Shown one piece after another: positions 1-58,640 of a stretch of DNA of 62,819 bases. This DNA is from Desulforegula conservatrix Mb1Pa (lineage in GTDB: Bacteria > Desulfobacterota > Desulfobacteria > Desulfobacterales > Desulforegulaceae). The stretch's first letter is position 1, and each line of letters begins with the position of its first letter. The notes under the pieces were generated by a model that saw only the letters and a program-made list of their open reading frames with translations, had not been told where the DNA came from and did not search any database. The stretch spans positions 1-62,819 of the forward strand of contig NZ_AUEY01000019.1 of the NCBI RefSeq assembly GCF_000426225.1, written 5' to 3'. The position numbers and the translations under genes were made by a program.

Positions 1-329
1 CTAAAAAGCCAGATCGTCTTGGAATCGGGAACTTTATCGCCTGCATCAATTGAAAGAAAACGCATAAAGGACAATCGGTCTAAAATCTGATATTCAATCC
101 CATCATCAGAAAGGTTGTAAAGAGACTGTAAAATCAGTATTTTAAACATCAGGATAACATCATACGGTTTTGCGCCCGCGTTGCTCTTTCGATCCTTCAC
201 AAAAACATTACTCAAAACAGAACGAAAATCCTCCCATGGAATCACCTTATTCAATTCAACTAATGGATCTCCATTCTTGTCAATTCTCGTATAGCGCTCT
301 TTCCAGTCAAATAATCCAAGCTGCTTCAT
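1..329 (-). CDS. IS5-family transposase, N-terminal part (cut by window edge)
   Basis: Reading leftwards from the ATG at 329, the frame is open to the window edge (109 codons). It begins MKQLGLFDW and continues with a GDPLVELNKVIPWEDF motif and a KPYDVILMFKILILQSLYNL motif. This is the DUF772-type N-terminal domain typical of IS5-group (DDE) transposases. The catalytic DDE region lies outside the window, so whether the element is intact cannot be judged. It would cut and paste its own IS. No terminal inverted repeat could be assigned between 330 and 425. Family assignment is confident; the subgroup is not. Confidence 0.85.
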   Translation of the reverse strand, partial: MKQLGLFDWKERYTRIDKNGDPLVELNKVIPWEDFRSVLSNVFVKDRKSNAGAKPYDVILMFKILILQSLYNLSDDGIEYQILDRLSFMRFLSIDAGDKVPDSKTIWLF

Positions 330-425: not shown

Positions 426-1430
426 CTATATTATAGGAGCTTTCCTCCCGCCCCTAAGACTCCGATTAGCTTCCATATCAAGCCACATTCCAAAAAGAGT
501 GAACTGACTCGCGCTGATAAAGGTAAACATGGCAGCAAGAGCATTTATTGGGGGAATATGTCCAACAAACACCCAAAAATAAAAAACTCTTAAAAAGAGG
601 AGAAAAGATGAGCAGCCAAAAAAGAAAGCCAGAAAATAAAATAGCACCAGAGGGTGAAAATCCCTGATAACGTATTTTTCCTTCATTCTCCAGAAAAACA
701 GTTTCAGAAGAAGCCAGCTCAAGGTAAACATAACTTTTTTTATGTTCATGCCTGATTTCTCGCCGACATTGTAAACCGGCTCAACGGGAACATCAGCAAT
801 TCTGAAATTGGCCACATTAAGCCTTACAATCAGATCATTGGGTTGACCGTAACTCTTATACATCGAATCCCAGTCTATTGTTTTAAGAACATCACGGTTC
901 ATTGCTGTATAACCGGACTGAAAATCTGAAATCTGCCAGTATCCAGAGGCAATTTTTGTTAAAAGAGAAAGAAAAGCTGTTCCATAATATCTGACTTTGG
1001 GCATCTTTTCATATGCTTTGCCCGAAAAAAATCTGTTACCTTTGGCAAAATCTGTCAACCCCTCAGTAACCGGGTACACAAGTTTTTCCAGATCATCCGG
1101 GTTCATTTGGCCGTCACCGTCCATTCTTACTATAATCTCGGCGTCCTGGCTCAAAACCCATTTAAAACCCTTAGCAAGAGAAGCTCCGCATCCGAGATTT
1201 GTTTCGTTTTTTAACAGAATTATTCTTTTGTCTGACTCAGATATTTTCTCAACTGTTTCAAAAGTGTTATCAGTACTTGAATCATCTACAATTACGATTT
1301 TATCGACAAAGTCAGGCATCGTCTCAATGACTTTTATAATCTGCTTCTCTTCATTATGGGCAGGAACAACAACATAAATTTTTTTATTTGAATACATTGG
1401 ATAATCCTGATTTCTGTTTAGCCCAAACAT
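426..1430 (-). CDS. GT2 glycosyltransferase, polyprenyl-phosphate sugar synthase type
   Basis: A 334-residue GT2 (GT-A fold) enzyme. The start of the fold is IYVVVPAHNEE, followed by the nucleotide-sugar aspartates in VDDSSTDNT and the metal-binding MDGDGQMNPDD. The family (DPM1/GtrB-like) transfers a sugar from a nucleotide donor to polyprenyl phosphate on the cytoplasmic face, making the lipid donor used by GT-C enzymes. After the catalytic domain (about 15-245) come two or three hydrophobic C-terminal segments (about 260-325), as in membrane-anchored GtrB-type synthases. A second Met 11 codons downstream (MYSNKK) has a GGA about 7 nt upstream and may be the true start. It is the last gene of a minus-strand glycosylation cluster and plausibly feeds the GT-C proteins upstream. 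The sugar is unknown. Confidence 0.85.
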   Translation of the reverse strand: MFGLNRNQDYPMYSNKKIYVVVPAHNEEKQIIKVIETMPDFVDKIVIVDDSSTDNTFETVEKISESDKRIILLKNETNLGCGASLAKGFKWVLSQDAEIIVRMDGDGQMNPDDLEKLVYPVTEGLTDFAKGNRFFSGKAYEKMPKVRYYGTAFLSLLTKIASGYWQISDFQSGYTAMNRDVLKTIDWDSMYKSYGQPNDLIVRLNVANFRIADVPVEPVYNVGEKSGMNIKKVMFTLSWLLLKLFFWRMKEKYVIRDFHPLVLFYFLAFFFGCSSFLLFLRVFYFWVFVGHIPPINALAAMFTFISASQFTLFGMWLDMEANRSLRGGRKAPII

Positions 1431-1504
1431 AGAATCTGAATAAAAATGGGTTACTACTGTCGGTGCACAATATATAAGTATACAAGTCTACGTGATTGCC
1501 TGAT

Positions 1505-3154
1505 TTACTTTATAATCTCATAAACTGAATACCCGTAGGCCCTGAATATCAGTCTGGCATGAAGCCTCCAGAAATCTAAAATTATTTTCTGGTGATCATC
1601 ATCAAATACACCGCTTAACCATGACGAGTAGAGTTCTTCACCTACAACAAAATGTGTTATCCTGATATTAGTCAGATTATTAAATATGTCTTTAGCACTG
1701 TTAGCATTATTTGTAAATTTCCTAAAAACATTCTCATCAGTTACCATCGGACGGTCACAGTAATATCTTCTGTTTCCTACAAAAAGGCCAAAAATTTTGG
1801 CATTCCGGTCAACTTTCTGATTAATATATTGATACGCTGAATATTCTGGCCTTTGATTCTGAATATATTCACCCCGCGAAATTTTTCCTGAAAGATACGG
1901 TATAGGATCAATTTTTTTATACAGCTCGAAAAAATAATTATAATTCATCGAAAACATAGCAATGATAATAATTGCAAAGGCTGATTTAATGGTTAACCCT
2001 GAACAACCAAATTTTTTTTTAATTATCTGCCATAATTCCCCAAGCCCGATAAAAGAGAGAACAGTTAAGGGGGCAATGGCTGGTCCAATCCACCTAATGC
2101 GCATATCTGTCTGAACATAGACAAAAATGATATAAGCCCATGCAAATGAAAAAAGCAGAATTTTTTCATGATCAGGAAGCTTTTTCTTCATGTACCTGAC
2201 AACTTCTACAATCATTGAGATTATTGGAAGAAAAAAAAGAAAAGGATTCAGTCGGCCATCAAAATATTTTGGATCATCGTCTCTGCCCTGAAAAAAAATA
2301 CGGACAGGAGTTGTTATTGTTTCAAAAAAACTCTCGCCATGAACCACCCTGCGGTAGTAAAAATGGCTTTTTTTGACTGATTCCCCGCCAGCAAGTCCCG
2401 TATGGCTATCTGAAGGATTGAAAAGAGAGTTATACAGAGGATAAACTGGATTTTTGGTCCACAAGTAATTTTTTACAAGCCAGGGGGAAAAAATTATAAT
2501 CGCAACAATGCAAAAAAGGCAGGCTCGCTCTATGACAAATTTTGACTTCGCAACTTTCTTTTCTGAAAGCCAGATAACAGCAAACATCATAAGCATAAAC
2601 ACAATCAGGCCGTTGTATTTGCAGCTCATGGCAAAGCCGCATGACAAGGCAGAAAAAACAAGATATCGGAGTTTTTCTAATCTTTGCCATTTAATAAGAT
2701 AGTATAATGATAAAAAAGAAAAAAAAATCAGGCCTAGATCAACATATACAGTTACTGACAACTTTACAATTACAGGCAGAGACAGAAAAAACAATGCGCC
2801 TGCACAGGCAGCATATAAAGATGCTCTTTGCCTCAGGATCTTATAAACAAAAAATGATGAAAACAGAGCCATTCCAAAATGAATGTATTTTGGTATAATA
2901 TCATTGCCGAAAAACAAAGGGATTGCGTAAATAAGCTCCAGGAGCTGGGGGTAATATGAAAATTCAATATCAGGAATTTCATATATACCGCCATGCTCTA
3001 TATAAAGTTTGGGAATGGCGAGATGATGGGTTAAGGCATCCCTGTCAACAGGAGGCGTTGAAGCCATTAAAATGATGGTAATAAATAAAAGTGCGTACAG
3101 TAAAATAGAAAAAAAGAGAAATATATTTTTATTATCAAAAAGGCTATTCTTCAT
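1505..3154 (-). CDS. GT-C membrane glycosyltransferase (GT39/ArnT-like)
   Basis: A 549-residue polytopic protein with roughly a dozen hydrophobic segments and a soluble C-terminal tail of about 120 residues. The first extracytoplasmic loop carries the acidic PPVDRDALTHH stretch. An Asp in this loop is the catalytic base in GT-C enzymes such as PMT and ArnT, which move a sugar from a polyprenyl-phosphate donor to protein or lipid acceptors in the periplasm. It overlaps the VKOR-DsbA gene by 11 bp, so the two are probably co-translated. Which acceptor it uses cannot be seen. Neighbouring prepilin and TMTC-like genes make a surface protein plausible. Confidence 0.72.
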   Translation of the reverse strand: MKNSLFDNKNIFLFFSILLYALLFITIILMASTPPVDRDALTHHLAIPKLYIEHGGIYEIPDIEFSYYPQLLELIYAIPLFFGNDIIPKYIHFGMALFSSFFVYKILRQRASLYAACAGALFFLSLPVIVKLSVTVYVDLGLIFFSFLSLYYLIKWQRLEKLRYLVFSALSCGFAMSCKYNGLIVFMLMMFAVIWLSEKKVAKSKFVIERACLFCIVAIIIFSPWLVKNYLWTKNPVYPLYNSLFNPSDSHTGLAGGESVKKSHFYYRRVVHGESFFETITTPVRIFFQGRDDDPKYFDGRLNPFLFFLPIISMIVEVVRYMKKKLPDHEKILLFSFAWAYIIFVYVQTDMRIRWIGPAIAPLTVLSFIGLGELWQIIKKKFGCSGLTIKSAFAIIIIAMFSMNYNYFFELYKKIDPIPYLSGKISRGEYIQNQRPEYSAYQYINQKVDRNAKIFGLFVGNRRYYCDRPMVTDENVFRKFTNNANSAKDIFNNLTNIRITHFVVGEELYSSWLSGVFDDDHQKIILDFWRLHARLIFRAYGYSVYEIIK

Positions 3155-4316
3155 TCACAGCTTTCTCGATTGTTTCAAACGGCAGCTCTCCTATGTAAAC
3201 CTTGCCTTCAATCACAAAAGCAGGGGTAGCCATGATTTCAAGCTTCATACCTACCAGAATATCATTATTTAAAATCTGCCTAACAGTTTTGTTTTTTATG
3301 GCAAAATAGACTTCAGCCCTTGAAAAACCAATCAGCTCACTTATTCTGGCAGTATTGATTCCACCCTCATCACCGATTTCAAGATTGAAAAGAATATCAT
3401 TAACTTTCCAAAAATTCCCCTTATGTGCAGCATAAACCGCTATCAGCGCAAGCTCGCCTGATCCCTCGTGAAAAGGAGCTGTAATAATAACATTATTAAA
3501 TCTGCTGTCCATCGGATAATGCCTGTGTACAAGACGCAATTTATCCGGGTGAGCGGCCACAAGCTGCCGCATGAAAAAATGAGCTTTTTTGCACTGAAAA
3601 CAACGGTAGTCAGAAAACTCTGTTATCGTTAATTTGGGTTTTGTAGCTCCAATCCAAGGATGGCCGTCATCGGTCATTCCTGAATCGATACCTGATTCTT
3701 CAATGGATAAAGGCTTAAGAAGCCAGTATTGGGGCATAAACAGCCACATTGCAACAGGCGAAACGATTATGATAAAAAAAACGATCCGCGCGATTTTAAT
3801 TTTCATAAAAAATTTCAGGTCATTTATCAATCCCCTGAAAATTCCATCAGTATCAAAACGGCTTCTGATAATCCATGAATAAAAAAGCAGCGCAATATTG
3901 ATGGCGTAACTGAGTATGCACATGATGCAGTAGCTTTTGATATAATAACCGGATATGAACGCAAGAACAAGACTGTAGGCTGTGAAACATCCTGATATAA
4001 TAAAAATTAAGGGCCAGCCCCGCCTTTTTTCAGCCCTCACTGTTCCTGATATTGCAATAATAAAAAAAAGAAGCGCATATCCAATGATACCCCAGAATGG
4101 CACCGGTATATTCATAAATATTGAATAGCTGCTCTGGGAGACAGTATCGCAGTTGATGGCCTTTGAAATCGCACAGAAACTTATATAACTGATATCATTA
4201 TAATTTCTGTAATGGGAATAGCTAAGATAAATGGAATTGACGAGACCGGATAATGAAATGATGAAAACAGGTATAAAATAGTATCTGTATGATAACGCAT
4301 TTATTTCTTTTTTCAT
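3144..4316 (-). CDS. VKOR-DsbA fusion (disulfide-bond formation)
   Basis: A 390-residue fusion. Residues about 10-155 form a VKOR domain: transmembrane helices, a periplasmic loop with two cysteines (FCAISKAINC), the PVPFWGIIGY segment, and the CIMC active site in a later helix. After another membrane helix (about 180-200), residues about 225-388 form a DsbA/thioredoxin-4-like domain with a CFQC active site. VKOR reoxidises DsbA by passing electrons to quinone, so the two halves make a self-contained oxidase for disulfides in exported proteins. Its ATG overlaps the upstream gene's TGA (ATGA), implying translational coupling. The prepilin 2 kb upstream has two cysteines and is a natural candidate substrate (inference). 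Confidence 0.88.
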   Translation of the reverse strand: MKKEINALSYRYYFIPVFIISLSGLVNSIYLSYSHYRNYNDISYISFCAISKAINCDTVSQSSYSIFMNIPVPFWGIIGYALLFFIIAISGTVRAEKRRGWPLIFIISGCFTAYSLVLAFISGYYIKSYCIMCILSYAINIALLFYSWIIRSRFDTDGIFRGLINDLKFFMKIKIARIVFFIIIVSPVAMWLFMPQYWLLKPLSIEESGIDSGMTDDGHPWIGATKPKLTITEFSDYRCFQCKKAHFFMRQLVAAHPDKLRLVHRHYPMDSRFNNVIITAPFHEGSGELALIAVYAAHKGNFWKVNDILFNLEIGDEGGINTARISELIGFSRAEVYFAIKNKTVRQILNNDILVGMKLEIMATPAFVIEGKVYIGELPFETIEKAVNEE

Positions 4317-6412
4317 TGCTGCTTATCATCCTTACCTAAAAGCTCCCGTATTTTTTTCATTATGACAGGCTTAATTATATCAGCAGAAACAGGCACTGTC
4401 TGATAAAAAACAGGTAAAACTTTCAGCATTGTATTAATTGAAACTATACTGTTATTGCCAAGCATTTCTTCAGCATATTTTTCAGCAACAGTCATATTCC
4501 CTGATTTTACGCCGTTTTCTATAAGGCAGAAAGTTGTAAACATATTAGCAGGCTCTTTTCTGCCCAGCCTTGATAGAAACCACTCTGCATTTTTATAATG
4601 CCCTGTCATTGAAAGCGCCCTGCCTATATTCAAATATACTGAAGAATCCCAAGGAGACTTATGAAGAGCCTGTCTTAGATAATGGAGAGCTTCATCGGGT
4701 CTGTTCTGCCATAAAAGAATCAGACCTTTTACATTTAAATAATCGCTTTTGAGGTATCCTTTGCGGTTATTAAGAAGCAGGTCCATTTCTTTTGAGGCTT
4801 CTTCCCATCGTCCAAGCATTATGAGTGGTTTTACCATATCAAAACGGCCCTTTATAAAATCAGGATCAATATCAAGGGCTTTCTTATAAAATTCGATTGA
4901 TTTTTCAAACTGATTTCTTTGAAAATATATAAAAGCAATGTTTCCATAAATATCTGAATCAAGATTCTTTCTTGCTTTATTCATAAGCAGAGTTTTTTCA
5001 AAAAGAGCCATTGCTACATCATAGTCTCTTAGTGTAGGATTATCTTTCCATGCTAAAGCAATCGCGACATTTGTAGCAGGCCTTGCATCGTTTGGAGCTT
5101 TTTTCAAAGCATCATACCATAGGGAAAGTTCCGTTTTCCAGACGTTATTGCGACTATATGTATTTATACCAAACCAAATAATTACAAGAGAAGCTGTAAA
5201 TATAATCATCTGATAAACGAAACAGTTTCTACCTTTGAATCTTTTCAAAGCTTCATTTACTCCCCAGGCAACAGGCATAAAAAGGAACATGGAAGGCAGA
5301 TAGTTTCTATGCTCAAAGACGAGTTCCAAAGGGATAAATGTCGATTCTATTATGTGATTTAAAAAATAAAAAAGAATTGATAATGCCAGCAAAGGTCTTT
5401 TAGTGAACTGAAAAAATCCTATAACAATTATCGTAAAAACTGCCAAAATAGAAGGAAGCGTCATCCAAGGCTGAAATAAATTTTTTGAAATTTCAACATC
5501 GTGGGTTATGGAAAACCTATCAGATAGAGGATAGAATAACTGGGAAAGATATCCAAGAATTATTCTTGGCTCTGTAAGAAGCCTTTCCGAAATGGAAAAA
5601 GGCCTGTAATTATATCGATCTATAAAAAAAAACAGGTTGCCTTTAACAAAGATTGCCACCCCGCCAATACTAATGACAGCTACCAATAAAAATATCGCAA
5701 AAAAATGTTTATATTTTATTTGTATTTTCTTCACATCTTTAAAAAAAAGAACATCTACCATAATAATAGATAATGGCAGGATAGCAGCATTTTCTTTTGA
5801 AAAAAAAGCGCAAAAATAGCATAGAATGCAGAGGAAATAAAAAAAATAGCCTTTAGCCTTATTCACAGCTACCTTATGGCCAATGCCATACAATATTAAG
5901 CAACGCCCTTTGACATAAAAAAAAATTGCAGCGATATAAAACATCGCAGCCATACTGGTCATGCGTTGTACTATATATGTTACAGCTGATGTCTGTATAG
6001 GATGCACCGCCCACAGAACAGAAGCCAAAACTGAAATAAAATAGGCTTCTTCCTTCGTAAAGCGCTTTCTTAAATTTGGAGATTCAAAAATAACAAGACT
6101 GGATAGAAGAAGAAAGACTAACGATAACCAATGAATTAAGATATTTATGATGTGATATCCAACTGTATTCGAACCGCCAATCAACCAGTTTAAAGCAAAA
6201 CTCAAATTTGGAAGTGGTCTGTAATTTTTATGACCCTCTCTTGAAAATGAGGATTTCCAAAGAGTGTCATAAGAAAAATTTTCAAGATGGAGGGCTTTAT
6301 TATTAATGATATTCGGTATATCATCGAACTGCCAGACAGAATCAAGGGTATTTGAATATACGCAGGCGATGATCACAAAAAGAAGAAAACTCGTCTGAAT
6401 CGCATTTTTCAT
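4313..6412 (-). CDS. TMTC-like membrane glycosyltransferase with TPR tail
   Basis: A 699-residue protein with an N-terminal multi-pass membrane region (about 1-425) and a C-terminal TPR region (about 450-680). The first extracytoplasmic loop has VWQFDDIPNIINN, where the acidic pair sits at the GT-C catalytic position, and a later loop has LWAVHPIQTSAVTYI. This layout matches the TMTC/PMT-like family, whose eukaryotic members O-mannosylate secretory proteins. Bacterial homologues are mostly uncharacterised. Several TPR units are readable (for example SIEFYKKALDIDPD and ALHYLRQALHKSP). It lies directly downstream of the prepilin but behind a terminator, so its expression from the pilin promoter should be low. 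Enzymatic activity is inferred. Confidence 0.78.
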   Translation of the reverse strand: MKNAIQTSFLLFVIIACVYSNTLDSVWQFDDIPNIINNKALHLENFSYDTLWKSSFSREGHKNYRPLPNLSFALNWLIGGSNTVGYHIINILIHWLSLVFLLLSSLVIFESPNLRKRFTKEEAYFISVLASVLWAVHPIQTSAVTYIVQRMTSMAAMFYIAAIFFYVKGRCLILYGIGHKVAVNKAKGYFFYFLCILCYFCAFFSKENAAILPLSIIMVDVLFFKDVKKIQIKYKHFFAIFLLVAVISIGGVAIFVKGNLFFFIDRYNYRPFSISERLLTEPRIILGYLSQLFYPLSDRFSITHDVEISKNLFQPWMTLPSILAVFTIIVIGFFQFTKRPLLALSILFYFLNHIIESTFIPLELVFEHRNYLPSMFLFMPVAWGVNEALKRFKGRNCFVYQMIIFTASLVIIWFGINTYSRNNVWKTELSLWYDALKKAPNDARPATNVAIALAWKDNPTLRDYDVAMALFEKTLLMNKARKNLDSDIYGNIAFIYFQRNQFEKSIEFYKKALDIDPDFIKGRFDMVKPLIMLGRWEEASKEMDLLLNNRKGYLKSDYLNVKGLILLWQNRPDEALHYLRQALHKSPWDSSVYLNIGRALSMTGHYKNAEWFLSRLGRKEPANMFTTFCLIENGVKSGNMTVAEKYAEEMLGNNSIVSINTMLKVLPVFYQTVPVSADIIKPVIMKKIRELLGKDDKQQ

Positions 6413-6442
6413 AGAGATATAATCAACTGATACAATGCTGAT

Positions 6443-6473
6443 AAAAAAAGGAAGGCGGATTTCTCCGCCTTCC
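6443..6473 (-). terminator. Rho-independent terminator of the prepilin gene
   Basis: A perfect 10-bp stem (GGAAGGCGGA / TCCGCCTTCC) with a 4-nt loop is followed on the minus strand by seven T residues. It lies 31 bp after the prepilin stop and before the TMTC-like gene, so it separates the pilin transcript from the glycosylation genes. Confidence 0.92.
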
Positions 6474-6503
6474 CTCTATTCTGACATCTTAACTGTCATT
6501 AAG

Positions 6504-6926
6504 CTACTTGAGGGACAGAACTTTTGTATATACCTTATTAGTCCATGACTTAGTAGTAGTACCTGCTATGTTAGGAGAAGAGTCTTGGTACTCTTGAGGG
6601 CATCTTCCGCTTCCATCAGTAACTGTGATTGTAATTGCAACGTTAGGATCAGCTGGCCCCACGATTGTCCATGAGTTGGATCCGGTACCTGTGTAGGTAA
6701 GGTCTGTACTCGCAATGTTTGTATGTGTTGGAATTGAGAAATAATCTGCAACTGCTGCTGCTACCGCATTTGCATCAGATTCAGCAGCTGAACAGAAAGA
6801 TTTGTTTCTGTATGCAATGAAGTTAGGTATAGCGATTGCCGCAAGAATACCGATAATAGCGATAACAATCATGAGTTCGATAAGTGTGAAGCCTTCTTCG
6901 CTCTGCATTCTAATTTTTCTAATCAT
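6504..6926 (-). CDS. pilA: Type IV prepilin (PilA-like major pilin or pseudopilin)
   Basis: A 140-residue prepilin. The short basic leader MIRKIRMQSEEG precedes the cleavage site, and FTLIELMIVIAIIGILAAIA forms the hydrophobic assembly helix with Glu5. PilD peptidase would cut after the Gly and methylate the Phe. The globular part is small, rich in Thr/Ser/Asn (possible O-glycan sites) and holds two cysteines (about residues 43 and 108). The ATG has an AAGGAG site 7 nt upstream. It has its own sigma-54 promoter and terminator and is surrounded by glycosyltransferases and a VKOR-DsbA gene. No pilus motor genes (pilB/T/C) are in the window, so a pseudopilin role cannot be excluded. Confidence 0.88.
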   Translation of the reverse strand: MIRKIRMQSEEGFTLIELMIVIAIIGILAAIAIPNFIAYRNKSFCSAAESDANAVAAAVADYFSIPTHTNIASTDLTYTGTGSNSWTIVGPADPNVAITITVTDGSGRCPQEYQDSSPNIAGTTTKSWTNKVYTKVLSLK

Positions 6927-7000
6927 AATGTTTCTCCTTTTCTTTAGGTTGTAAATAATGATTTGACCATGAGATAATAGTTTTTGTTGTTAACAATAAA

Positions 7001-7016
7001 AGCAAACAACATGCCA
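7001..7016 (-). promoter_or_regulatory. Sigma-54 (-24/-12) promoter of the prepilin gene
   Basis: The minus strand reads TGGCATG-N4-TTGCT, matching the RpoN consensus TGGCAYR-N4-TTGCW at every defined base, with correct GG-to-GC spacing. The predicted transcript start is near 6990, leaving a leader of about 64 nt before the pilin ATG at 6926. Pilin genes in many proteobacteria are controlled by RpoN with PilS/PilR. Neither regulator is encoded here. Confidence 0.88.
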
Positions 7017-7155
7017 ATAAATAAACACATATAAATTATGATTGCATAGCCACTACCATAAAACATTAGCTGAGCATATGACATTTTTTGGGATATATAT
7101 ATACAAAAAATGTCAAACACAAAAAAAACTCATCTGTGAAATACTATCAATAATA

Positions 7156-8910
7156 TCATTGAGCCCTAAGAATTTTATCAATATCACTCTGGGCGTGTAT
7201 ATATCCCAGGCTGTAAGATTTCTGGAAATTCCACAAAGCTGCAGCAACATCGCCGATTTCATTATTAACAAGTCCCACCTTATAATAAGCCCTGGCATTA
7301 TCAGGGGTAAGCATTATAGCCTTTCCAAGATATTTCAAAGATTTACTATATTCTTTCTGCTTCAAATAAATGCTTCCAATATTATAATAAGCTAAAGCAA
7401 AATCTGGCTTGATACTCACGGCTCTGAAAAAACTTTTTATTGCTTCCTCATTCTCATCCAAAGCCATATGGCAAACTCCAACATTAAAATGACCATTAAA
7501 ATATGATGGTTTAATTTTGATTGCTTCGGAAAAACAGTCCTTGGCTTCTAATATTCTTTTTTCCTTCATTAAAGCATCACCAAGATTGCCGTAGGCGATA
7601 TAATTATTTTTTGTAACACAGATTGAATGCTGAAATATCGAAATACTGTCACACCAGTTTTTGACATAAAAGCGAGCTGCAAACATAAAAAATATCGCTG
7701 TGGCAAGTAATGAGCTATAAGCGAAAAAATTACCGTACTTTAGTTTATCAAAAACAAATTGGGCGCCGAAGCCCATTATTAAAAAAAGGCCTATAAAAGG
7801 AATATAAGTATAGCGGTCAGCAATTGATTGAGCCCCAACCTGAACAATTCCTATAACAGGAACAAGAGTCCCCATGTACCAAAACCAGCCGACAAAAAGC
7901 CATGGAATTTTTTTAAAAAACCAGATAATCGCTGCCGATACAAATATGAGAAACAATAAGGAAATATAAAAAAATGGCCAATCAATTTTTGGGGCATAAG
8001 GATAAAATATCGAAAGATTAAAAGGATAGACCATTTTAATGATGTATTTAAAGTAAGAAATGAATGCGTTACAAAACCTCTCAGGTAATGGCAGTACGTC
8101 AAGCGATGACACTGCACCTCCCTTGGCCTGAGCTATTACTGTAATATAGCTTGAGAGCATGCTCAATATGAAAAACGGAATTTTTTCTATTATTAGAGAT
8201 GACAATATTCTGTATCGTGGATACATTTTCAAGTCATTCATGCGTTTAAGCGGCCAGTAATCAAAAAGCATCAATAAGAATGGCAGCGTAACGATCATTG
8301 GCTTTGACATTATTCCAAGTGCAAAAAAGGTCATAGCCGACCAATATGTTACTCTTCTGCGTGACTTAGCATAAAAAATATAAGTCAAAATAGTAAGCAT
8401 CATAAAAAAAGTACTCAGAACATCTTTTCTTTCTGCAATCCAAGCGACTGATTCAACGTGCATGGGATGAAGAGCAAAAAAAGCCGCGATAAAAGCACTT
8501 GGCCATTTTTGAGTTGTTGTTTTGAAAAAAATAAAAAAAAGAAGAATGGTATTTAAAACATGGAATAGCAAATTAGTAGCATGATGTTTGCCTGGGTCAA
8601 GACCATAAAGCTGACAGTCCAGCATGTGAGACAGCCACGTAACCGGGTGCCAGTTGCTTGCATGAAATGAAAAAAAGGCCCACTTTATACTATCTGCTGT
8701 CATGCCATGTTTAACATGAATATTTTCAGTGATATATTGAACATCATCATAGTTAATAAAGTCATAATTAACAACTGGGATATATACAAATAAAGTTGCC
8801 GTGAATAATAGACAGCAAATTATGAATTCTGGTCTGACTAACACTTGTTTTGATGAATATTTAATCAAGTTCGGATAATCTTTCAAAAAAAATGCGGCAA
8901 TAAACTTCAA
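7156..8910 (-). CDS. TMTC-like membrane protein with TPR tail
   Basis: A 584-residue paralogue-like partner of the protein at 4313-6412. The membrane region (about 25-425) contains DFINYDDVQYITEN, with the acidic pair expected for GT-C catalysis, then NWHPVTWLSHMLDC and HPMHVESVAWIAERKDV, which are hallmark stretches of the bacterial TMTC/PMT-like family. Residues about 440-575 form four TPR units. The first codon is TTG with no strong Shine-Dalgarno, so the exact start is uncertain. It lies upstream of the sigma-54 pilin promoter and probably belongs to the transcript coming from 10630. Likely a periplasmic protein O-glycosyltransferase, by family only. Confidence 0.76.
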   Translation of the reverse strand: MKFIAAFFLKDYPNLIKYSSKQVLVRPEFIICCLLFTATLFVYIPVVNYDFINYDDVQYITENIHVKHGMTADSIKWAFFSFHASNWHPVTWLSHMLDCQLYGLDPGKHHATNLLFHVLNTILLFFIFFKTTTQKWPSAFIAAFFALHPMHVESVAWIAERKDVLSTFFMMLTILTYIFYAKSRRRVTYWSAMTFFALGIMSKPMIVTLPFLLMLFDYWPLKRMNDLKMYPRYRILSSLIIEKIPFFILSMLSSYITVIAQAKGGAVSSLDVLPLPERFCNAFISYFKYIIKMVYPFNLSIFYPYAPKIDWPFFYISLLFLIFVSAAIIWFFKKIPWLFVGWFWYMGTLVPVIGIVQVGAQSIADRYTYIPFIGLFLIMGFGAQFVFDKLKYGNFFAYSSLLATAIFFMFAARFYVKNWCDSISIFQHSICVTKNNYIAYGNLGDALMKEKRILEAKDCFSEAIKIKPSYFNGHFNVGVCHMALDENEEAIKSFFRAVSIKPDFALAYYNIGSIYLKQKEYSKSLKYLGKAIMLTPDNARAYYKVGLVNNEIGDVAAALWNFQKSYSLGYIHAQSDIDKILRAQ

Positions 8911-8955
8911 TTTTAAGTAATTGCGACCTTTAAAACTTAAATTTGCCGCTTTGTG

Positions 8956-9699
8956 CTATTTAATAAACAAATTATGTATTTTCCCTGATTTTGCGAGTAT
9001 GTAACAATACATAGTTTTCAGACATCCAAATCCATATTGAACACTTCTAAAAAAATTTATCGAAGAAGCCTCAGCAAAGTACTTTGTAGGGCAGCTTATC
9101 TCGGCTATTGTGCAACCAAGCCAGATTATCTGTGCCAGCATCTGGTTATCAAACACAAAGTCATCTGAATTTTTATCAAACGGAATTTTTTCCAGAAGTT
9201 CCCTTGAAAAAGCCCTATATCCTGTATGATATTCAGAAAGTTTTGCCCCAAAACAGACATTACCCGCAAAAGTCAAAAAACGGTTGGCAGCATATCTCCA
9301 CAAAGGCATTCCGCCTTTCAGCGCCCCGCCTCCAAGAATTCTGGAACCAAGAACGCAGTGATAGAGACCATTTCCTATGAGAGAGGCCATTGCAGGTATA
9401 AGTTTAGGCGTGTACTGATAGTCGGGATGAACCATAATAACGATATCTGCGCCATTTTCGAGGGCAAGCCTGTAACAGCTTTTCTGATTTCCTCCGTATC
9501 CTTTATTCCTTTTATGCTTGAATATAATCGACTTGGGCAAGTTTTCTGCTATTTCAACAGTTCTGTCGGAACTGACATCATCCACAATTATAACCAAGTC
9601 GACAACGCCCTGATCCATGACTTCATCATAAGTCATGCGAAGTGTTTTCTCAGCATTATAAGCAGGCATTACCACAACAACTTTTTTATCTTTATACAT
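8956..9699 (-). CDS. GT2 glycosyltransferase, DPM1-like
   Basis: A 247-residue GT2 enzyme without a clear membrane anchor. It shows VVVVMPAYNAEKTLR, the nucleotide-binding IVDDVSSDRT and the HPDYQY metal-site region in place of DxD. The length and the absence of C-terminal membrane segments resemble soluble dolichyl/polyprenyl-phosphate mannose or glucose synthases. It would make the lipid-linked sugar for the adjacent TMTC-like protein, whose gene begins 45 bp downstream. The donor sugar is not predictable from sequence. Confidence 0.82.
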   Translation of the reverse strand: MYKDKKVVVVMPAYNAEKTLRMTYDEVMDQGVVDLVIIVDDVSSDRTVEIAENLPKSIIFKHKRNKGYGGNQKSCYRLALENGADIVIMVHPDYQYTPKLIPAMASLIGNGLYHCVLGSRILGGGALKGGMPLWRYAANRFLTFAGNVCFGAKLSEYHTGYRAFSRELLEKIPFDKNSDDFVFDNQMLAQIIWLGCTIAEISCPTKYFAEASSINFFRSVQYGFGCLKTMYCYILAKSGKIHNLFIK

Positions 9700-9712
9700 A
9701 AAATATAAGGCC

Positions 9713-10630
9713 TTATTTTTTAGCTATGACAATAATTGTGCCACTATTATTAACTATTTTTTCAAAAACGACTATGGGTAAAAAGAGAACTGAGAAAGTG
9801 AAGCCAAGTATAATATTTAAATGATCTATCAAACTATTCGACCTTTTTTTTCTGCCTCTTAATCGATCAAAAAAAACATCCGCCTTCTTAAAAATAGAAT
9901 TCAAGGCGCTCTGAACCCATCCGAGAAGATCATACTCAAACTCCTGCCAAAGCTTGTGTTCGATAATAAAACCATTTGATTTGAGACAGCATTTTAATGA
10001 ATCTGCATCAAAATGGTATATATGACGGGGTACATCCAAATGAAGCCATTTGTTTTTAAATAATCGAGCCTGGATACTTTTTTTATTTGGAACCGCGATA
10101 ATCAGCTTACCGTTTGGAGCAAGAAGGCTATAAATACCAGTGAAAACCTTTTTAGTATCCGGCATATGTTCCAGTGTATGCCACATGGTAATACAATCAA
10201 AAGGTTCACTTCCAGCGAAATCTTCAATCTTTTCTTTAACAGCCAAGTTATTAAATAAATCATAATCAGGATTGATCTCTGTGCCGCTGACATTCCATCC
10301 AGTGGTTTTTAATGATTTTATAAATGAGCCATCTCCGCATCCAATATCGAGCAGCTTTTTGCCTTTACCATTTTTGATTGTCGAGGAAACGATCTTGGAA
10401 CGCCGCTTTATGCAATATTTTTCAGTAAAACCGTGCCTGTTACCATAATATGATCTATCGTAATATTTTTTTAGATCATTAGGCTGGGGGGTTGTATATC
10501 CAAGTCCGCAGCCAGAACAATTATATATCGAGAAAACTTCCATTGAAACACTATCACTGACTGGGCTGTAAAGAGGTTCGAGGTTCATACCACAAATATG
10601 GCATTTGGTATGAAAAGTTTTATCAGACAT
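9713..10630 (-). CDS. Class I SAM-dependent methyltransferase with N-terminal Zn motif
   Basis: A 305-residue protein. Two CxxC pairs near the start (CHICGM and CSGCGLGY, about residues 10-42) look like a zinc knuckle. The SAM-binding glycine loop is LLDIGCGDGSFI (about 93-104), followed by a Methyltransf_23-type core with MWHTLEHMPD. A hydrophobic stretch near residues 270-290 may anchor it to the membrane. This class commonly modifies sugars or lipid-linked intermediates in glycan clusters. It sits 13 bp upstream of the GT2 gene, in the same operon. The substrate is unknown. Confidence 0.8.
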   Translation of the reverse strand: MSDKTFHTKCHICGMNLEPLYSPVSDSVSMEVFSIYNCSGCGLGYTTPQPNDLKKYYDRSYYGNRHGFTEKYCIKRRSKIVSSTIKNGKGKKLLDIGCGDGSFIKSLKTTGWNVSGTEINPDYDLFNNLAVKEKIEDFAGSEPFDCITMWHTLEHMPDTKKVFTGIYSLLAPNGKLIIAVPNKKSIQARLFKNKWLHLDVPRHIYHFDADSLKCCLKSNGFIIEHKLWQEFEYDLLGWVQSALNSIFKKADVFFDRLRGRKKRSNSLIDHLNIILGFTFSVLFLPIVVFEKIVNNSGTIIVIAKK

Positions 10631-10686
10631 TTGTTTTCGCCTATTGTTTTTTATTTTAAACAGGTGTTTCTATTATACCCAATTGA

Positions 10687-10806
10687 CTCACAAAAAGTCC
10701 GATTACCTTCATTCCGGCGCAGGCCGGAATCCAGAAGCGCCTGAACAGAATGGATACCGGATCAAGTCCGGCATGACGACGACGCCTTTTTTTGACTTTT
10801 TGCGAG
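10687..10806. repeat. Dispersed repeat A, copy 1
   Basis: A 120-bp element bounded by inverted ends CTCACAAAAAGTC and GACTTTTTGCGAG. Inside are the two short dyads common to the family (CCGGCGCAGGCCGG; CCGGATCAAGTCCGG). A 78-codon frame through it is a by-product of the repeat and not a gene. Confidence 0.85.
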
Positions 10807-10863
10807 ACCGTCACTCTTAATGGCTTATGCTTCTTGTAAGAGCTATCATACAACGGCAGATAT

Positions 10864-12489
10864 TCATGGAAACTCCCTGAGTATCTGCCCAAGTTTTACG
10901 TGATCAAAAGCAATTCGTCTTGGTCTGCTTTTGGTATAAAAAAACACGTCTCCTTCAATTTCTTCGCCAGGAGCCAACTCTGTGACCAGATTTTTTGAAA
11001 AATCATTATACTGGTATTTGACGCCATCCTCGCAATCAAGAGAAAAGAAATCCGGATTTATCCTGAAAGCATCTGGTCCGACATTTTTTAGCCAGACCCT
11101 TATTTTTCTCTGGTTTCTGTTTTTATTACCTGAAAAGCCGTCATCACGCATAGCCATTACGACATATTCATTTCCTTCGAAAAAAAGAAGCTTCTCACTT
11201 TTCGCTTTGTGAACAAGCCATTCATTCCCAGGAGTTGGTTCAAGACCATAAGCCTTTTCAGCAATTGTTATTGCGCCTTCCAAGACAGCCTTATCCTTAT
11301 TATAATTACGGAGAATACTTTCTGCCTTTTCTGCCATTTTTGAAGCGAACATCATCCTGTTCAGCCTTAGCAAATCGGCGTAAGATTCATTCCCAGGATC
11401 AATGTCTGAAAGCCTCGAATATGCTTCGTATCTGGCTTCATAATCATCAAATGCCATATCTTTTATTTTCTGATTCAGAATTTTCTCGTCAAGGCTGCTT
11501 TTTATCAAAATGAGGAAAGGATTGTAACGCAGATTTGGTATATCATATTTATTAAGTTCTGACTTAGCAGGCTCTATTCCTTCTCTGTCTGCTACAGAAA
11601 TGATATGTTCTTTAAGCGACCAGGCATTTTTACGAAATATATCAGCCTTTTTTTCAAGCGCTGTTTCATCTGCAATACGCTTTTTTTCATCTCTGTAAAC
11701 CCGGTAAGAATCAATGCCGGAATTGACAGAATAATAAACAGCCACAAAACATATAACTACTGAAACAAACAGTAAAATCTGCTTTTTAAAGTTCCATGTC
11801 ACAGAATACGAGGTGAGAGCCAATGATTTTAAAACAGGCGTTAAAGCAAACAAAAAAGAAATAAAATATTTTGCAATTACGACAGCGAACCCTCTAATGC
11901 CTGCTAAAACTTTTGAAAACTCTTTCAGATAATTACATGCGCCAGAAGAAACAGGCGTCTCGTATAGATCCTCCTGTTTCATGGACTCAAGTTTTGCGAA
12001 AACGGCTCCGCAGTTCCGGCACTCATACTCTCCGAAATACCGGTTTGACCTGCAATTGAGACAGAAACCAATAACATGGCCGGTCTCTTCAAATTCCATG
12101 ACAAGTCTATCATCCCCATCACTAAAACTGTCAAATGATAAAATATCAGAGGACTCGGGCTTCCGGTTTTCCTGCTCATCCAAGACTTCTTTGTCCGACT
12201 CCTTTATCAGGGCATTTTCATAGATTTGAAAATCTATGCCGCACATCAGGCAAACCCTGTCATTTTCAAGCCTGTCAAAACCGCATGAAGGACATTTGGG
12301 CCCGGAAAAAGTCTTTACTTCCGGGACTACCTTCTTTTTTTCGTCTGATTCTACCTCCGGTTTCTTAGCGGGCCCGGTATCTGAAGAGCTTTGGTAAATC
12401 TGAAAATCAATCCCACACATCAGACAAATTCTGTCAGATTCTATTCGCTCGAATCCGCATGCAGGGCATTTCAAATCTTGGCCTGTCAT
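10864..12489 (-). CDS. Membrane protein with three zinc ribbons and C-terminal DUF4352-like domain
   Basis: 541 residues, function unknown. Two near-identical zinc ribbons lie at about 8-33 and 66-90 (CPACGFERIES / CPSCGFDRLEN, each followed by CLMCGIDFQIY), and a third at about 142-165 (CLNCRSNRYFGEYECRNCG). One or two membrane helices at about 205-265 separate them from an alpha-helical region and a C-terminal beta domain (about 425-541). That domain resembles DUF4352-type extracytoplasmic modules (conserved IRVWLKNVGPDAFRINPDFF). The cytoplasmic ribbons and exported tail suggest a sensing or scaffolding role, but no function can be assigned. Repeat A copy 1 lies just downstream. Confidence 0.7.
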   Translation of the reverse strand: MTGQDLKCPACGFERIESDRICLMCGIDFQIYQSSSDTGPAKKPEVESDEKKKVVPEVKTFSGPKCPSCGFDRLENDRVCLMCGIDFQIYENALIKESDKEVLDEQENRKPESSDILSFDSFSDGDDRLVMEFEETGHVIGFCLNCRSNRYFGEYECRNCGAVFAKLESMKQEDLYETPVSSGACNYLKEFSKVLAGIRGFAVVIAKYFISFLFALTPVLKSLALTSYSVTWNFKKQILLFVSVVICFVAVYYSVNSGIDSYRVYRDEKKRIADETALEKKADIFRKNAWSLKEHIISVADREGIEPAKSELNKYDIPNLRYNPFLILIKSSLDEKILNQKIKDMAFDDYEARYEAYSRLSDIDPGNESYADLLRLNRMMFASKMAEKAESILRNYNKDKAVLEGAITIAEKAYGLEPTPGNEWLVHKAKSEKLLFFEGNEYVVMAMRDDGFSGNKNRNQRKIRVWLKNVGPDAFRINPDFFSLDCEDGVKYQYNDFSKNLVTELAPGEEIEGDVFFYTKSRPRRIAFDHVKLGQILREFP

Positions 12490-12534
12490 AACCGTGATAC
12501 CTTTAATTATCTTGATGCCATATTAATAACAAAA

Positions 12535-14172
12535 CTAAATTTTCCAGATATTTATACCATGGGTTCTGCCAGCTACAGGAAGATAGACCATAACTTTTGT
12601 ACCCCGTCCCTCTTCAGAAAGGATATGTATATGGCCGTCATTCTGTTTAACCGCAGAGTAAGCAATCGTAAGACCAAGCCCCATACCTTTTCTCACACCT
12701 CTCTCCCGTGTAGAAAAATAGGGATCAAAAATCCTTGGCATATCTTCCTTGCATATTCCAGGGCCATTGTCAGACACGGTTATTTTAACATATTCACCAG
12801 GAGGCAAAAGAAAGCCGGGATGAATGGAATCTGCATCCATAATGACCTTTTCAGCCTCTATCTTCACTGTATTGTCTGACGAGACTGCAGCCTCGAGCGC
12901 ATTGGACATTATACTTGATAAAGCAAGCCTTATTGAATCACAGTCTATGCGTACCTCAGGAAGATCCTTCGGAATATTTGTCACTATTTTTATTCCTGAA
13001 GTCCCGAGATTGAGCATGACAGCTTCATTAATGACAGGGCCGACCAGAATATTCTGGCGATAGACCTTTCTGGTCTGTGAAAAATTAATAAATTTATGGG
13101 TGATTGACTTCCCCATGTTTGCGGCTTTTTCAATCTGCCCGAGCATATTGTGTACTCTGCTGCTTTTTTCCAGCTCCATCTGGGCAAGGGATGTATTTCC
13201 AACTATAATTGAAAGAATATTGTTAAAATCATGGGAAATTCCGGCAGCGATTGTATTTGCCACCTCAAGCTTTCCTGACTTTATTCTCTCGTCCTCAAGC
13301 GCCCTTCTTAATGAAATATCCCTGATTATCAGCTGGTAAAGACGCTCATCCACACCCTCTACGGTTGTCACCCCTATTTCCACAGGAGTTCTGGAATCAT
13401 CCCTCTTTTTTAACACTGTTTCAAAAAAATCTGACGCGCCTAATAACGAAAGGCCACCAGCATTCACTGTAGAATCGAATTCAAAAATACGATCTATGCA
13501 GATTCCTGATAATTCGGAAATATCCATTCCGGCGAGCTCGGCAGCCCGTCGGTTCACCATTTTTATTACACCCTCACTGTCCAGAAGAAAAAGAGCTTCG
13601 CCAGATTCCTCGAAAAGAAGACGGTAGCGCTTTTCGCTGTCTTCAAGAGCTGTCTTGGTTCTTGCCAGTTCCTCTTCCAGCTCCATCTCCTTGGAAACCT
13701 CCGTAAGATTCCCGAATGACAGACAGATCCCATCATTATCAAATGACTCAATTAGTACGGAATCCTTAAGCCACAAAATTCTTCCGCTCTGGGTTCTGAT
13801 TTTGTATACTGCTTCAATATTCCCGGCGGTTTTACCCTGCTTCCTCTGGCTTTCCCTGATAAAAGCCATATCAGCTTTTCTGATTATATGCTTTTTGATT
13901 GTTACATCAAAATATTTATATACTCTCTGATCAATAACAGCCTTCCTAAAAATTTCCGGCAGCCCTTCTGTGTCCGTATCAAAAATCTTCAGAAAGCCTT
14001 TGCTTGCAAACTCATACCATATTGCGCCTGTTTTTTCATCCCAGGCAGAAATATAATGAAGAAAAGGCCCGGGCACTGAATCAAGCCCCTGATAAACCGA
14101 CAGCGCTTCAGCAAGACGCATTTTCAGTTCTTCACTATAACCTGAGTCCAATATTCTTCCATGATAGTTCAA
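12535..14172 (-). CDS. PAS-domain sensor histidine kinase (orphan, soluble)
   Basis: 545 residues. An N-terminal PAS-like region (about 25-155) and a second PAS domain (about 177-290) precede a HisKA domain with the phospho-acceptor His in GISHDFNNILSII (about 315). A HATPase_c domain follows, with N box SNALEAA and G boxes DNGPGI, GMGLGL. No membrane helices are evident, so it probably senses a cytoplasmic signal. The start is TTG with AGAGGA 7 nt upstream. No response regulator is adjacent, and the ISHDFNN H-box type often phosphorylates distant or receiver-only partners. The signal and target are unknown. Confidence 0.88.
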   Translation of the reverse strand: MNYHGRILDSGYSEELKMRLAEALSVYQGLDSVPGPFLHYISAWDEKTGAIWYEFASKGFLKIFDTDTEGLPEIFRKAVIDQRVYKYFDVTIKKHIIRKADMAFIRESQRKQGKTAGNIEAVYKIRTQSGRILWLKDSVLIESFDNDGICLSFGNLTEVSKEMELEEELARTKTALEDSEKRYRLLFEESGEALFLLDSEGVIKMVNRRAAELAGMDISELSGICIDRIFEFDSTVNAGGLSLLGASDFFETVLKKRDDSRTPVEIGVTTVEGVDERLYQLIIRDISLRRALEDERIKSGKLEVANTIAAGISHDFNNILSIIVGNTSLAQMELEKSSRVHNMLGQIEKAANMGKSITHKFINFSQTRKVYRQNILVGPVINEAVMLNLGTSGIKIVTNIPKDLPEVRIDCDSIRLALSSIMSNALEAAVSSDNTVKIEAEKVIMDADSIHPGFLLPPGEYVKITVSDNGPGICKEDMPRIFDPYFSTRERGVRKGMGLGLTIAYSAVKQNDGHIHILSEEGRGTKVMVYLPVAGRTHGINIWKI

Positions 14173-35243: not shown

Positions 35244-37109
35244 ATGAAATCTTGCAAAGCATCAGTATTAGGCTTGTCTATTTCTTTAGCATTTTTAGTA
35301 ATCATGTCGGGATGTGCCACTCCGATTGGAGTTAGACCACAGTCTCCGTCTGATTCATACATGAGCAACATGTCCAGCCCATTGAGCGCTGGGCCTCCAA
35401 GTAATACCACGACAATAGTTCTGCACAGATTTGACCTTGTGGACCTGTTTGAAAAAGATCCTGCTTCAGCAATTAAAACTCTTCACGATAAAGCGATTAA
35501 GGATCAGAGAAGGGATATCGTGTTTGCTCTTGCAGAGCTTTCATATTTCTATGGAGATCAACTCGATAATAGCCTGGATTCTGAAAAGAAGAACAAAGCT
35601 CCTGAATATTTCCTGCTCTCTGCAATATACTCATATACTGCAATCCTTGACAAAAGATACGACCCGGTTCCAAATCTTCTTGATCATAGAGTAAGAAGGG
35701 CCTGTGATCTTTATAATTACTCGCTCTGGAGAGGTTTTACAATAAATGGGGATGAGGGGCTTGAAATAAAGGATGGAACCAGAAAACTTCCATTTGGACA
35801 GGCAACAATATCAACCAATGTCTCCCACTTCCCATGGGAACTTGATAAAATCGAAAAATTTGAGCCTGTGGACAAATACTCTGTATATGGCCTAAGCGTA
35901 CGAAACAGGTTCAATGGGATTGGTCTTCCAATGGTAGCCTTAAAACCTTCTCAGGAATCGCCTGTGGGCAGCCAGGTACTCCCTGCGACCGCATTCCTGA
36001 GAATTGAAAGTAATCTGGAAAATATTGAGACCAACGATTTCAAGGCATCTCTTGAACTCTATTCATCCTATGATGATGTTTCAGTAAAGGTTAATGACCG
36101 GGAAATACCCCTTGAAATTGATACAACCACTCCGGTCGCATACAAACTAACGGACAACTCCATATGGTCATTTGGAACTGATCTTTTCCTCGGCAAATTT
36201 CAGAATGTTCCAAACAAACTTTATAAATTCCAGCCTTATAATCCTGATAGAATTCCTGTTGTATTTGTACATGGGACGTTCAGCAGTCCTGTATGGTGGG
36301 CCGAGATGATAAACACCCTTAATGGCGACCCTGTTCTCAGAAAAAAATATCAATTCTGGTACTTCTTTTACAACAGCAGCAAACTCATAACAAATTCAGC
36401 CGCAGACTTAAGGTCAGAGCTTATAAGAAATGTCAAAAAATACGATCCTGAAAACAAATCAAAGACCTTAAACCAGATGGTTGTAATAGGACACAGTCAG
36501 GGAGGCCTTCTCACCAAAATGACCGCAATTGACAGCAAGGACAAACTTCTCAAGACGGTTCTCAAAGGCGATATTGACAAGCTCAACGCAAGCGAGGACA
36601 TTAAAAATATAATCAAAAAAAACCTCGTATTTGATCATCTCCCGTTTGTAAAAAGAACTGTTTTCATATCAACTCCGCACAGAGGAAGTTTCCTTAGCCA
36701 GTCACTCGTAAGAACTCTTGTACGTAAATTAATCAATTTCCCGGACACCATTCTTAAAGGAACCCAGGAAGTATATGGAATTCTAAGGGATGATGTAAAA
36801 AGGCAATGGGAAGGTAAGATTCCGACAAGCGTTGATGCGATGTCCCCGGATGATCCACTCTTAAATGCAATAGCTGATCTGCCTCTTGCTCCTGGGATTA
36901 AAGGGAACTCGATAATTGCCATAAAAGATGATGGAGATCCCAAATTAGGAAACGACGGAGTAGTCGAATACAAAAGCGCACACCTCGAAGGCATGGAATC
37001 TGAATTCATTGCAAGATCATCACATTCTTGCCAGGATAAGCCATCAACCATTGAAGAGGTCAGAAGAATTCTGCTTAAGCATCTTGAAGAAAACGGGACA
37101 AAGCCATAA
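35244..37109 (+). CDS. Lipase-like alpha/beta-hydrolase lipoprotein
   Basis: 621 residues. A signal peptide ends in lipobox IMSGC, so it is predicted lipid-anchored. A roughly 300-residue N-terminal region of unknown fold leads to an alpha/beta hydrolase (about 335-600): oxyanion strand IPVVFVHGTFSS, nucleophile elbow VIGHSQGG, and a late RSSHSC that could supply the catalytic His. It probably cleaves an ester or acyl chain at the cell envelope; the substrate is unknown. Co-oriented with the two upstream envelope genes and followed by a strong terminator. Confidence 0.82.
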   Translation: MKSCKASVLGLSISLAFLVIMSGCATPIGVRPQSPSDSYMSNMSSPLSAGPPSNTTTIVLHRFDLVDLFEKDPASAIKTLHDKAIKDQRRDIVFALAELSYFYGDQLDNSLDSEKKNKAPEYFLLSAIYSYTAILDKRYDPVPNLLDHRVRRACDLYNYSLWRGFTINGDEGLEIKDGTRKLPFGQATISTNVSHFPWELDKIEKFEPVDKYSVYGLSVRNRFNGIGLPMVALKPSQESPVGSQVLPATAFLRIESNLENIETNDFKASLELYSSYDDVSVKVNDREIPLEIDTTTPVAYKLTDNSIWSFGTDLFLGKFQNVPNKLYKFQPYNPDRIPVVFVHGTFSSPVWWAEMINTLNGDPVLRKKYQFWYFFYNSSKLITNSAADLRSELIRNVKKYDPENKSKTLNQMVVIGHSQGGLLTKMTAIDSKDKLLKTVLKGDIDKLNASEDIKNIIKKNLVFDHLPFVKRTVFISTPHRGSFLSQSLVRTLVRKLINFPDTILKGTQEVYGILRDDVKRQWEGKIPTSVDAMSPDDPLLNAIADLPLAPGIKGNSIIAIKDDGDPKLGNDGVVEYKSAHLEGMESEFIARSSHSCQDKPSTIEEVRRILLKHLEENGTKP

Positions 37110-58570: not shown

Positions 58571-58640
58571 GGTTTATTTAGGATGAGCCAATACATTTTC
58601 AATAGGATTGAAGTTCCATTCCAACCCACAGGGGATTGCC

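Follow-up and report, generated by a model that had tools for sequence, protein, structure and literature searches.

We analysed a stretch of 62,819 nucleotides (hereafter the window) from Desulforegula conservatrix Mb1Pa, a member of the Desulfobacterota whose genome assembly comprises 4.47 Mb in 178 contigs; the window begins at base 1 of contig C19 (NZ_AUEY01000019.1). Between positions 426 and 10630 it carries eight genes, all on the minus strand, to which a first-pass annotation made from the sequence alone had given the same coordinates and which it had put forward as a candidate locus for the glycosylation and oxidative folding of a type IV pilin. By combining Pfam searches with AlphaFold models, we could find every part of that description: a prepilin of the PilA class, two proteins joining a GT-C glycosyltransferase domain to tetratricopeptide repeats (TPRs), a third GT-C protein, two GT2 glycosyltransferases, a methyltransferase and a VKOR-DsbA fusion. 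Gene content and order, folds, catalytic residues, a sigma-54 site and the co-occurrence of a pilin cysteine pair with the oxidase were all computed here. In minus-strand order, the locus reads:

9713 to 10630, minus strand: S-adenosylmethionine (SAM) methyltransferase, accessory (Pfam Methyltransf_23, E 3e-28)
8956 to 9699, minus strand: GT2 protein, polyprenyl-phosphate-sugar-synthase-like (PF00535, E 1e-22)
7156 to 8910, minus strand: second predicted GT-C + TPR protein, module-B type (Pfam TPR; weak PMT_2, E 1.6e-5)
7002 to 7016, minus strand: putative sigma-54-type promoter, TGGC-N7-TTGC, 90 bp 5' of the prepilin start codon
6504 to 6926, minus strand: type IV prepilin, PilA class (Pfam N_methyl, E 5e-9)
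4313 to 6412, minus strand: GT-C + TPR protein, core type (TPR from Pfam matches, GT-C from the AlphaFold model)
3144 to 4316, minus strand: VKOR-DsbA fusion (Pfam VKOR, PF07884, E 1e-25; Thioredoxin_4/DSBA, E 1e-12 and 3e-7)
1505 to 3154, minus strand: third GT-C protein, ArnT/PMT/STT3-like fold (Pfam PMT_2, E 4e-11; AlphaFold model)
426 to 1430, minus strand: GT2 protein with two C-terminal hydrophobic segments, polyprenyl-phosphate-sugar-synthase-like (PF00535, E 1e-27)

The core-type GT-C/TPR gene overlaps the start of VKOR-DsbA by 4 bases, and VKOR-DsbA overlaps the third GT-C gene by 11 bases at its 3' end, which fits the expectation for a single operon downstream of the prepilin. The putative promoter has counterparts elsewhere: of the 53 related loci in which PilA is linked to VKOR-DsbA (see below), 31 have a TGGC-N7/8-TTGC site in the 350 bp preceding PilA, against 0.47 expected from mononucleotide shuffles. 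In the one relative inspected (locus L052), an NtrC-type regulator is encoded just upstream of pilA.

The prepilin and the enzymes around it

The 6504-6926 product starts with a class III signal peptide carrying GFTLIE and followed by a hydrophobic helix, and it matches the NCBIfam model IV_pilin_GFxxxE above its cut-off. In mature numbering it contains a conserved pair of cysteines, C33 (codon 6794-6792) and C97 (codon 6602-6600). Conserved Ser/Thr columns lie close to them, at S34 and S94, which are no more than candidate glycan acceptors. The same genome encodes a second pilin of this class (G000:C62:7136-7450, locus L149), 51% identical and with two cysteines, in whose surrounding 17 kb we found no GT-C or VKOR matches.

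The VKOR-DsbA fusion carries a C48/C56 loop, a VKOR centre (C130-x-x-C133) and a thioredoxin centre (C239-F-Q-C242), with all six redox cysteines invariant in the 16 sequences aligned, and its profile matches solved VKORs and DsbA-like proteins. This genome gave neither a second VKOR match nor a DsbB match. A plasmid origin of the gene was considered and rejected, as a tblastn search against plasmids returned 32 records, none of them spanning 80% of the query.

In the AlphaFold model of the core-type protein (4313-6412; mean pLDDT 92), a GT-C domain is followed by TPRs. By structure comparison of the model, residues 1 to about 430-450 matched STT3 and Pmt4 (Z 17-19), and the TPR part matched PilW (2vq2, Z 19.6, 215 residues aligned, 2.8 Å) and PilF (2ho1, Z 18.8) as well as many unrelated TPR proteins. 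Among the 50 Foldseek matches listed for this protein, TPR proteins stood at the top and no solved GT-C structure was present. Residues D30-D31, R65-P66 and E367-H368-R369 are invariant in 49 core-type sequences. For the module-B protein (7156-8910), the same arrangement of a GT-C domain and then TPRs is predicted from sequence: its PMT_2 match reached 25.6 bits, slightly below the cut-off of 26.1, and D55-D56, W87-x-P89 and D365-R366-x-x-Y369 are at least 93% conserved in 61 sequences. The GT-C part of this protein found no second match in the genome at E<=0.001, the core type being too distant for detection by a module-B query.

Both GT-C/TPR proteins had been called TMTC-like by the first-pass annotation, a label that holds for part of the catalytic motifs. 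As in the animal TMTC1-4 proteins, a GT-C membrane domain precedes the TPRs and a DD stands in the first outer loop (M1), being present within the first 120 residues of all 61 module-B sequences; the core type also has the YRP second motif (M2) and an invariant Lys (K-E in the consensus), the module-B type has [DE]RxxY, and the donor to be expected is a polyprenyl-phosphate sugar, according to the sections of PMC7801869 that treat the animal enzymes. The label does not extend to the Pfam domain TMTC_DUF1736 (PF08409), which was matched neither in 4313-6412 at E<=1 nor in 7156-8910 at E<=0.1. For the ERxxY motif (M7) the two types differ: the pattern [ED].?R..Y, found in 61 of 61 module-B sequences, fits 4 of 57 core-type ones, the core type having the variant EHRNY there. 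Hydropathy gives nine segments in each of the two proteins, versus the 11 transmembrane regions argued for TMTC in PMC7801869.

The third GT-C protein (1505-3154) was modelled with a mean pLDDT of 92, and the model matched ArnT (5ezm, Z 24.5 over 437 residues), chain B of Pmt1-Pmt2 (Z 24.3 over 373) and an archaeal oligosaccharyltransferase (3waj, Z 23.6 over 447), with STT3/AglB among its fold matches. Its first-loop residues R38-D39 are invariant in 53 of 53 sequences, and the genome holds no second match to it at E<=0.001. The two GT2 proteins most resemble polyprenyl/dolichyl-phosphate-sugar synthases; no curated NCBIfam model scored over its cut-off for either, and the best likenesses (AglJ, PpgS and dolichyl-phosphate hexose transferase) were all well below theirs. 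The one at 8956-9699 has homologues of 62-78% identity in 12 related loci and is a frequent neighbour of the module-B GT-C/TPR gene. For the methyltransferase (9713-10630), alone among the eight genes, the mapped related loci hold no close homologue: its matches, in three of them, are just 24-28% identical, and we rejected it as a core part.

Linkage to PilA and the pilin cysteine pair in relatives

By scanning a species-level genome collection with a VKOR-DsbA profile, we obtained 110 confirmed relatives, the best 80 of which were analysed as loci. They are labelled Desulfobacterota or "Deltaproteobacteria", except for a few labelled merely Proteobacteria and one 3.2-kb contig labelled Bacillota, and several come from the same genome. 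Cultured strains with such a locus include Desulfobulbus rhabdoformis DSM 8777, Desulfofustis glycolicus DSM 9705 and Desulfosarcina widdelii PP31. The core order pilA - GT-C/TPR - VKOR-DsbA - GT-C is seen again in other members of the Desulfobacterales and in the Desulfobulbales, including cable bacteria. PilA lies within 10 kb of VKOR-DsbA in 53 of the 80 loci (the pilins of L226 and L238 were read directly for this count), and a GT-C gene does so in 76. In 46 of the 70 loci with at least 1.9 kb upstream, the core GT-C/TPR gene ends no more than 1.5 kb ahead of VKOR, and the third GT-C type starts at most 3.5 kb downstream of it in 57 of the 67 loci with at least 1.5 kb downstream. Of 28 loci first scored without PilA, 21 had less than 4 kb upstream and seven had at least 8 kb; L238, one of these seven, does contain PilA. 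The first-pass annotation had named a lack of linkage to prepilins in related genomes as one ground for refuting its proposal; the linkage held, with PilA, GT-C/TPR, VKOR-DsbA and the third GT-C recurring together. The methyltransferase is not part of this core, and the GT2 genes are less constant.

In 18 of 38 relatives, a module-B GT-C/TPR homologue was found no more than 10 kb from the best PilA. The number expected was 0.23, taken from the share of each genome that lies within this distance of the listed module-B matches (E down to about 1e-41, with at most 23 candidates scored per genome). Chance neighbourhood was thereby ruled out. Twelve of these 18 relatives belong to the 26 genomes without the pilus-type VKOR defined below; six of the 12 have Cys-free pilins, and the C33/RCP pair is present in G018 only. 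A GT2 gene of the 8956 type, about 70% identical, often stands close by in them. Because the module-B linkage to PilA holds in these 12 relatives, glycosylation and oxidation look separable.

Two relatives showed further genes at such loci. In G027 (G027:C10 79390-101070, loci L051 and L052), five module-B-type GT-C/TPR paralogues stand with a core-type one and a VKOR-DsbA gene; a third GT-C gene is close by and PilA is no more than about 22-24 kb away, so that the sugar enzymes are locally expanded at one pilA locus. In G018 (L081:2276-3811), a B12-binding radical SAM protein is encoded between PilA and the GT-C/TPR gene.

The pilins were located by similarity to the window prepilin, a query that also recovers Cys-free PilAs in relatives. 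All 53 linked pilins, as well as the window's own, have C33 and a second cysteine in an [RN]CP motif, while their globular parts are otherwise very divergent. Then, we compared this pair with the presence of disulfide oxidases in 58 genomes of the order. DsbB was matched in 1 of the 58 and any VKOR in 21, leaving 37 without a VKOR match; 16 of the 21 have the pilus type (E<1e-80), which is what counts as "with VKOR" in all genome counts here. A VKOR of another type occurs in G025, G026, G041, G048 and G057, the first four of which are counted among the 26 genomes "without". The cysteine comparison covers the 39 genomes with a readable PilA, that of D. conservatrix included; in the remaining 19, which include G017 and the VKOR-bearing G023, G045 and G053, there was no clear PilA match or the PilA sequence was not taken in. 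G025 (PilA match E 8e-11) is in the 39-genome set, and the 38-relative linkage set has G017 instead.

Every one of the 13 genomes with a pilus-type VKOR had the C33/RCP-type pair, versus 2 of the 26 without that VKOR (Fisher 1.3e-8, kinship ignored). Under a looser rule asking for one cysteine in each pilin half, the counts were 13 of 13 and 8 of 26. Among the 24 pair-less pilins, 17 have Asp, Asn or Glu at position 33 and six have another cysteine pair; the pilins of G006, G012 and G048 have two or three cysteines elsewhere. In an RpoB tree built for 38 genomes, both traits being available for 35, the cysteine pair and the oxidase each require 8 changes. Its supported branches yield 5 independent pairs of genomes, of which on average 3.9 change the same way and none the opposite way. 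Across these genomes, the sugar enzymes go with the pilin as such, and the oxidase goes with the cysteine pair in it. The functional tie to the pilin, which had been proposed from proximity, is supported by the recurring linkage and by the co-variation of the oxidase with that pair, and the pair may serve as a sequence signature predicting which species have the oxidation module.

Other pilins of the order deserve mention. A second class (L055, L151, L084, L159, L154 and L156), with Cys29 in YQCK and a C-terminal cysteine, is found in genomes without VKOR or DsbB. In G049, a Cys-type PilA (L143:5153-5533) lies beside enolase and CTP synthase genes. This genome gave neither a VKOR nor a DsbB match and so departs from the oxidase rule.

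A proposed maturation pathway and its alternatives

The genomic evidence that a conserved pilin-maturation cassette is real is strong, and from its genes this cassette would be a variant of pilin-linked glycosylation with an added oxidation module. We consider it likely that two separable modules work in the periplasm on one pilin, the presumed major type IV pilin. In the oxidation module, VKOR-DsbA would close a C33-C97 disulfide, thereby tying C33, where the membrane-proximal half of helix 1 ends, to C97 in the globular domain, and its VKOR half would pass the electrons to quinone. In the glycosylation module, the GT2 enzymes would charge polyprenyl phosphate with sugar at the cytoplasmic face, and the GT-C/TPR enzymes would transfer it at the outer face to hydroxyl side chains of PilA (O-glycosylation); the TPR domain, which by analogy with TMTC would lie on the periplasmic side, may hold the pilin, and the third GT-C may add or extend the sugar. 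We infer every catalytic step from family membership, and likewise the sugar, the acceptor residues and the order of the steps. The full proposal, namely that Desulfobacterota possess a TMTC-like pilus O-glycosylation coupled in one operon to quinone-driven disulfide formation on the same pilin, is plausible but tentative. If it holds, the main recognisable disulfide oxidase in much of the order would be an enzyme of the pilus, with a substrate that in cable bacteria ranks among the most abundant proteins.

Several observations weigh against the two-module cassette. Regarding linkage, some of the 80 loci come from one genome or nearly duplicate each other (L213/L215, L171/L178, L191/L225, L210/L234 and L215/L249) and were counted separately; no PilA was found within 10 kb of VKOR in six loci for which at least 8 kb of upstream sequence was available (L177, L193, L203 and L207, with no PilA seen; L185, where it is about 18 kb away; and L206, where a TPR-like coding sequence was seen by eye to extend past the end of the fetched stretch); G053, a single contig 79% complete, has VKOR and GT-C and no PilA-class match better than 1e-6; and a GT2 gene of the 426 or 8956 type occurs in 20 of the 80 loci, many of which are short. 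Regarding the pilin, G018 (79% complete) and G049 (97% complete) have the cysteine pair without a VKOR match, and six genomes have a different pilin cysteine pair with neither VKOR nor DsbB. With so few independent pairs of genomes on supported branches, their shared change does not reach significance (sign test p 0.125). Finally, Ser/Thr enrichment was rejected as a sign of glycosylation, since Ser+Thr content is 22% in the 13 pilins with pilus-type VKOR and 21% in the 26 without.

The main rival takes VKOR-DsbA as a general disulfide oxidase that sits in the pilA operon for the sake of an abundant client or of strong expression, which we regard as a serious though rather unlikely explanation. 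It would account for this being the sole VKOR in a genome without a DsbB match, for the near absence of DsbB from the order, and for four loci (L177, L193, L203 and L207) in which PilA was not seen and VKOR still stands beside the third GT-C, an arrangement that also speaks against a pilin-bound cassette. However, the 37 genomes without any VKOR match indicate that VKOR and DsbB are dispensable there, and the pilus-type VKOR tracks the pilin cysteine pair. The general oxidase and the two-module cassette overlap, as a pilin-dedicated enzyme may serve other clients. The correlation itself could stem merely from horizontal swaps of whole pilA cassettes, with the oxidase aimed at something else: PilA and its cassette may have been transferred as one unit, in which case linkage alone would produce the cysteine correlation, and both the 8 changes of either trait on the RpoB tree and the position of pilA within the cassette fit such swaps. 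Hitch-hiking alone would not, however, preserve both cysteines in 53 of 53 otherwise divergent pilins, and we find this explanation quite improbable.

Two alternatives concern the sugar enzymes. That the GT-C and GT2 proteins build or decorate another surface polymer, such as lipopolysaccharide or exopolysaccharide, and stand beside pilA for co-regulation only, is improbable in our view. The best fold match of the third GT-C is indeed ArnT, a lipid A modifier, and GT-C/TPR homologues were also found away from pilA in several relatives; nevertheless, the linkage to pilA is seen both in varied arrangements and in a fixed core order, and none of the ten proteins of 426-14172 scanned with Pfam is a polysaccharide export or assembly protein. 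It is very unlikely that the GT-C/TPR proteins lack enzymatic activity and serve as pilus assembly factors like PilF or PilW, in which the TPRs would be the active part and the membrane part an anchor. Their TPR likeness to PilW and PilF, shared as it is with many unrelated TPR proteins, would suit such a role, but the membrane part has a GT-C fold in the core-type model, its acidic pair is invariant (D30/D31 in 49 of 49 core-type sequences, DD in 61 of 61 module-B ones), and a GT2 gene adjoins the module-B type in many mapped loci.

Relation to known systems

TfpW of Pseudomonas is a GT-C enzyme fed by a polyprenyl-phosphate sugar. In Pseudomonas aeruginosa, TfpO and TfpW are pilin glycosyltransferases encoded beside pilA, and TfpW adds D-arabinofuranose, according to the passages of PMC11841053 on these enzymes. 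The D. conservatrix locus resembles them in that a glycosyltransferase gene accompanies the major pilin, in the Pseudomonas case specifically to its pilin group as those passages have it. It is set apart from these descriptions by its two or three GT-C proteins (two with TPRs), its local GT2 enzymes and its VKOR-DsbA. Cadherins are the clients of TMTC proteins, whereas here the host is a bacterium and the presumed acceptor is a pilin. To our knowledge, no function has been assigned to bacterial TMTC-like proteins.

Quinone-linked oxidative folding in pilus assembly has a precedent in Actinomyces oris, where VKOR reportedly reoxidises MdbA. There, sortase-pilus oxidative folding by MdbA, with electron transport to menaquinone, is needed for pilus assembly, as stated in part of PMC5478893. 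That system differs in being one of Gram-positive sortase pili with a separate MdbA, while the window has a VKOR-DsbA fusion in a type IV pilin operon.

The first-pass annotation had presented the locus as the best candidate for an undescribed system. This needs tempering, because a pilA cluster of Candidatus Electrothrix was noted in 2023 with PilA, one or more TPR proteins, two sugar-modifying enzymes and a methyltransferase (PMC10580974, in its section on the cluster), which is the same kind of locus as ours. A term search of PMC10580974 found no mention of VKOR, disulfide or glycosylation, and its section on the cluster treats the TPR proteins as interaction proteins and describes the cluster for cable bacteria only. 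The same section reports that PilA is highly expressed in cable bacteria and calls its function there unclear. In our searches of an open-access library, no paper was found that connects type IV pilins of this phylum with TMTC-like proteins or with VKOR, and excerpts of PMC5174107 and PMC11705803 likewise held nothing on such a tie to pilins.

If the proposed pathway is correct, pilin glycosylation would have a further architecture in addition to those of TfpO and TfpW, a type IV pilus operon would be seen to encode a disulfide oxidase of its own, and bacterial TMTC-like proteins would gain a concrete acceptor candidate. A modified, cross-linked pilin would also bear on gliding, adhesion, phage defence and the reading of extracellular filaments in these bacteria.

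Outside the locus, the window contains a few genes worth recording. At the contig end, just downstream of the 426-1430 GT2 gene, positions 1-329 (minus strand) encode a truncated transposase (Pfam DUF772, E 1.4e-17), so the assembly breaks inside a mobile element. A 621-residue protein at 35244-37109 has esterase-like matches that are all sub-threshold, and a 917-residue protein at 51918-54671 has merely borderline AAA/SMC matches. Near the other end of the window, positions 58608-62342 encode a large TPR protein with a FecR domain.

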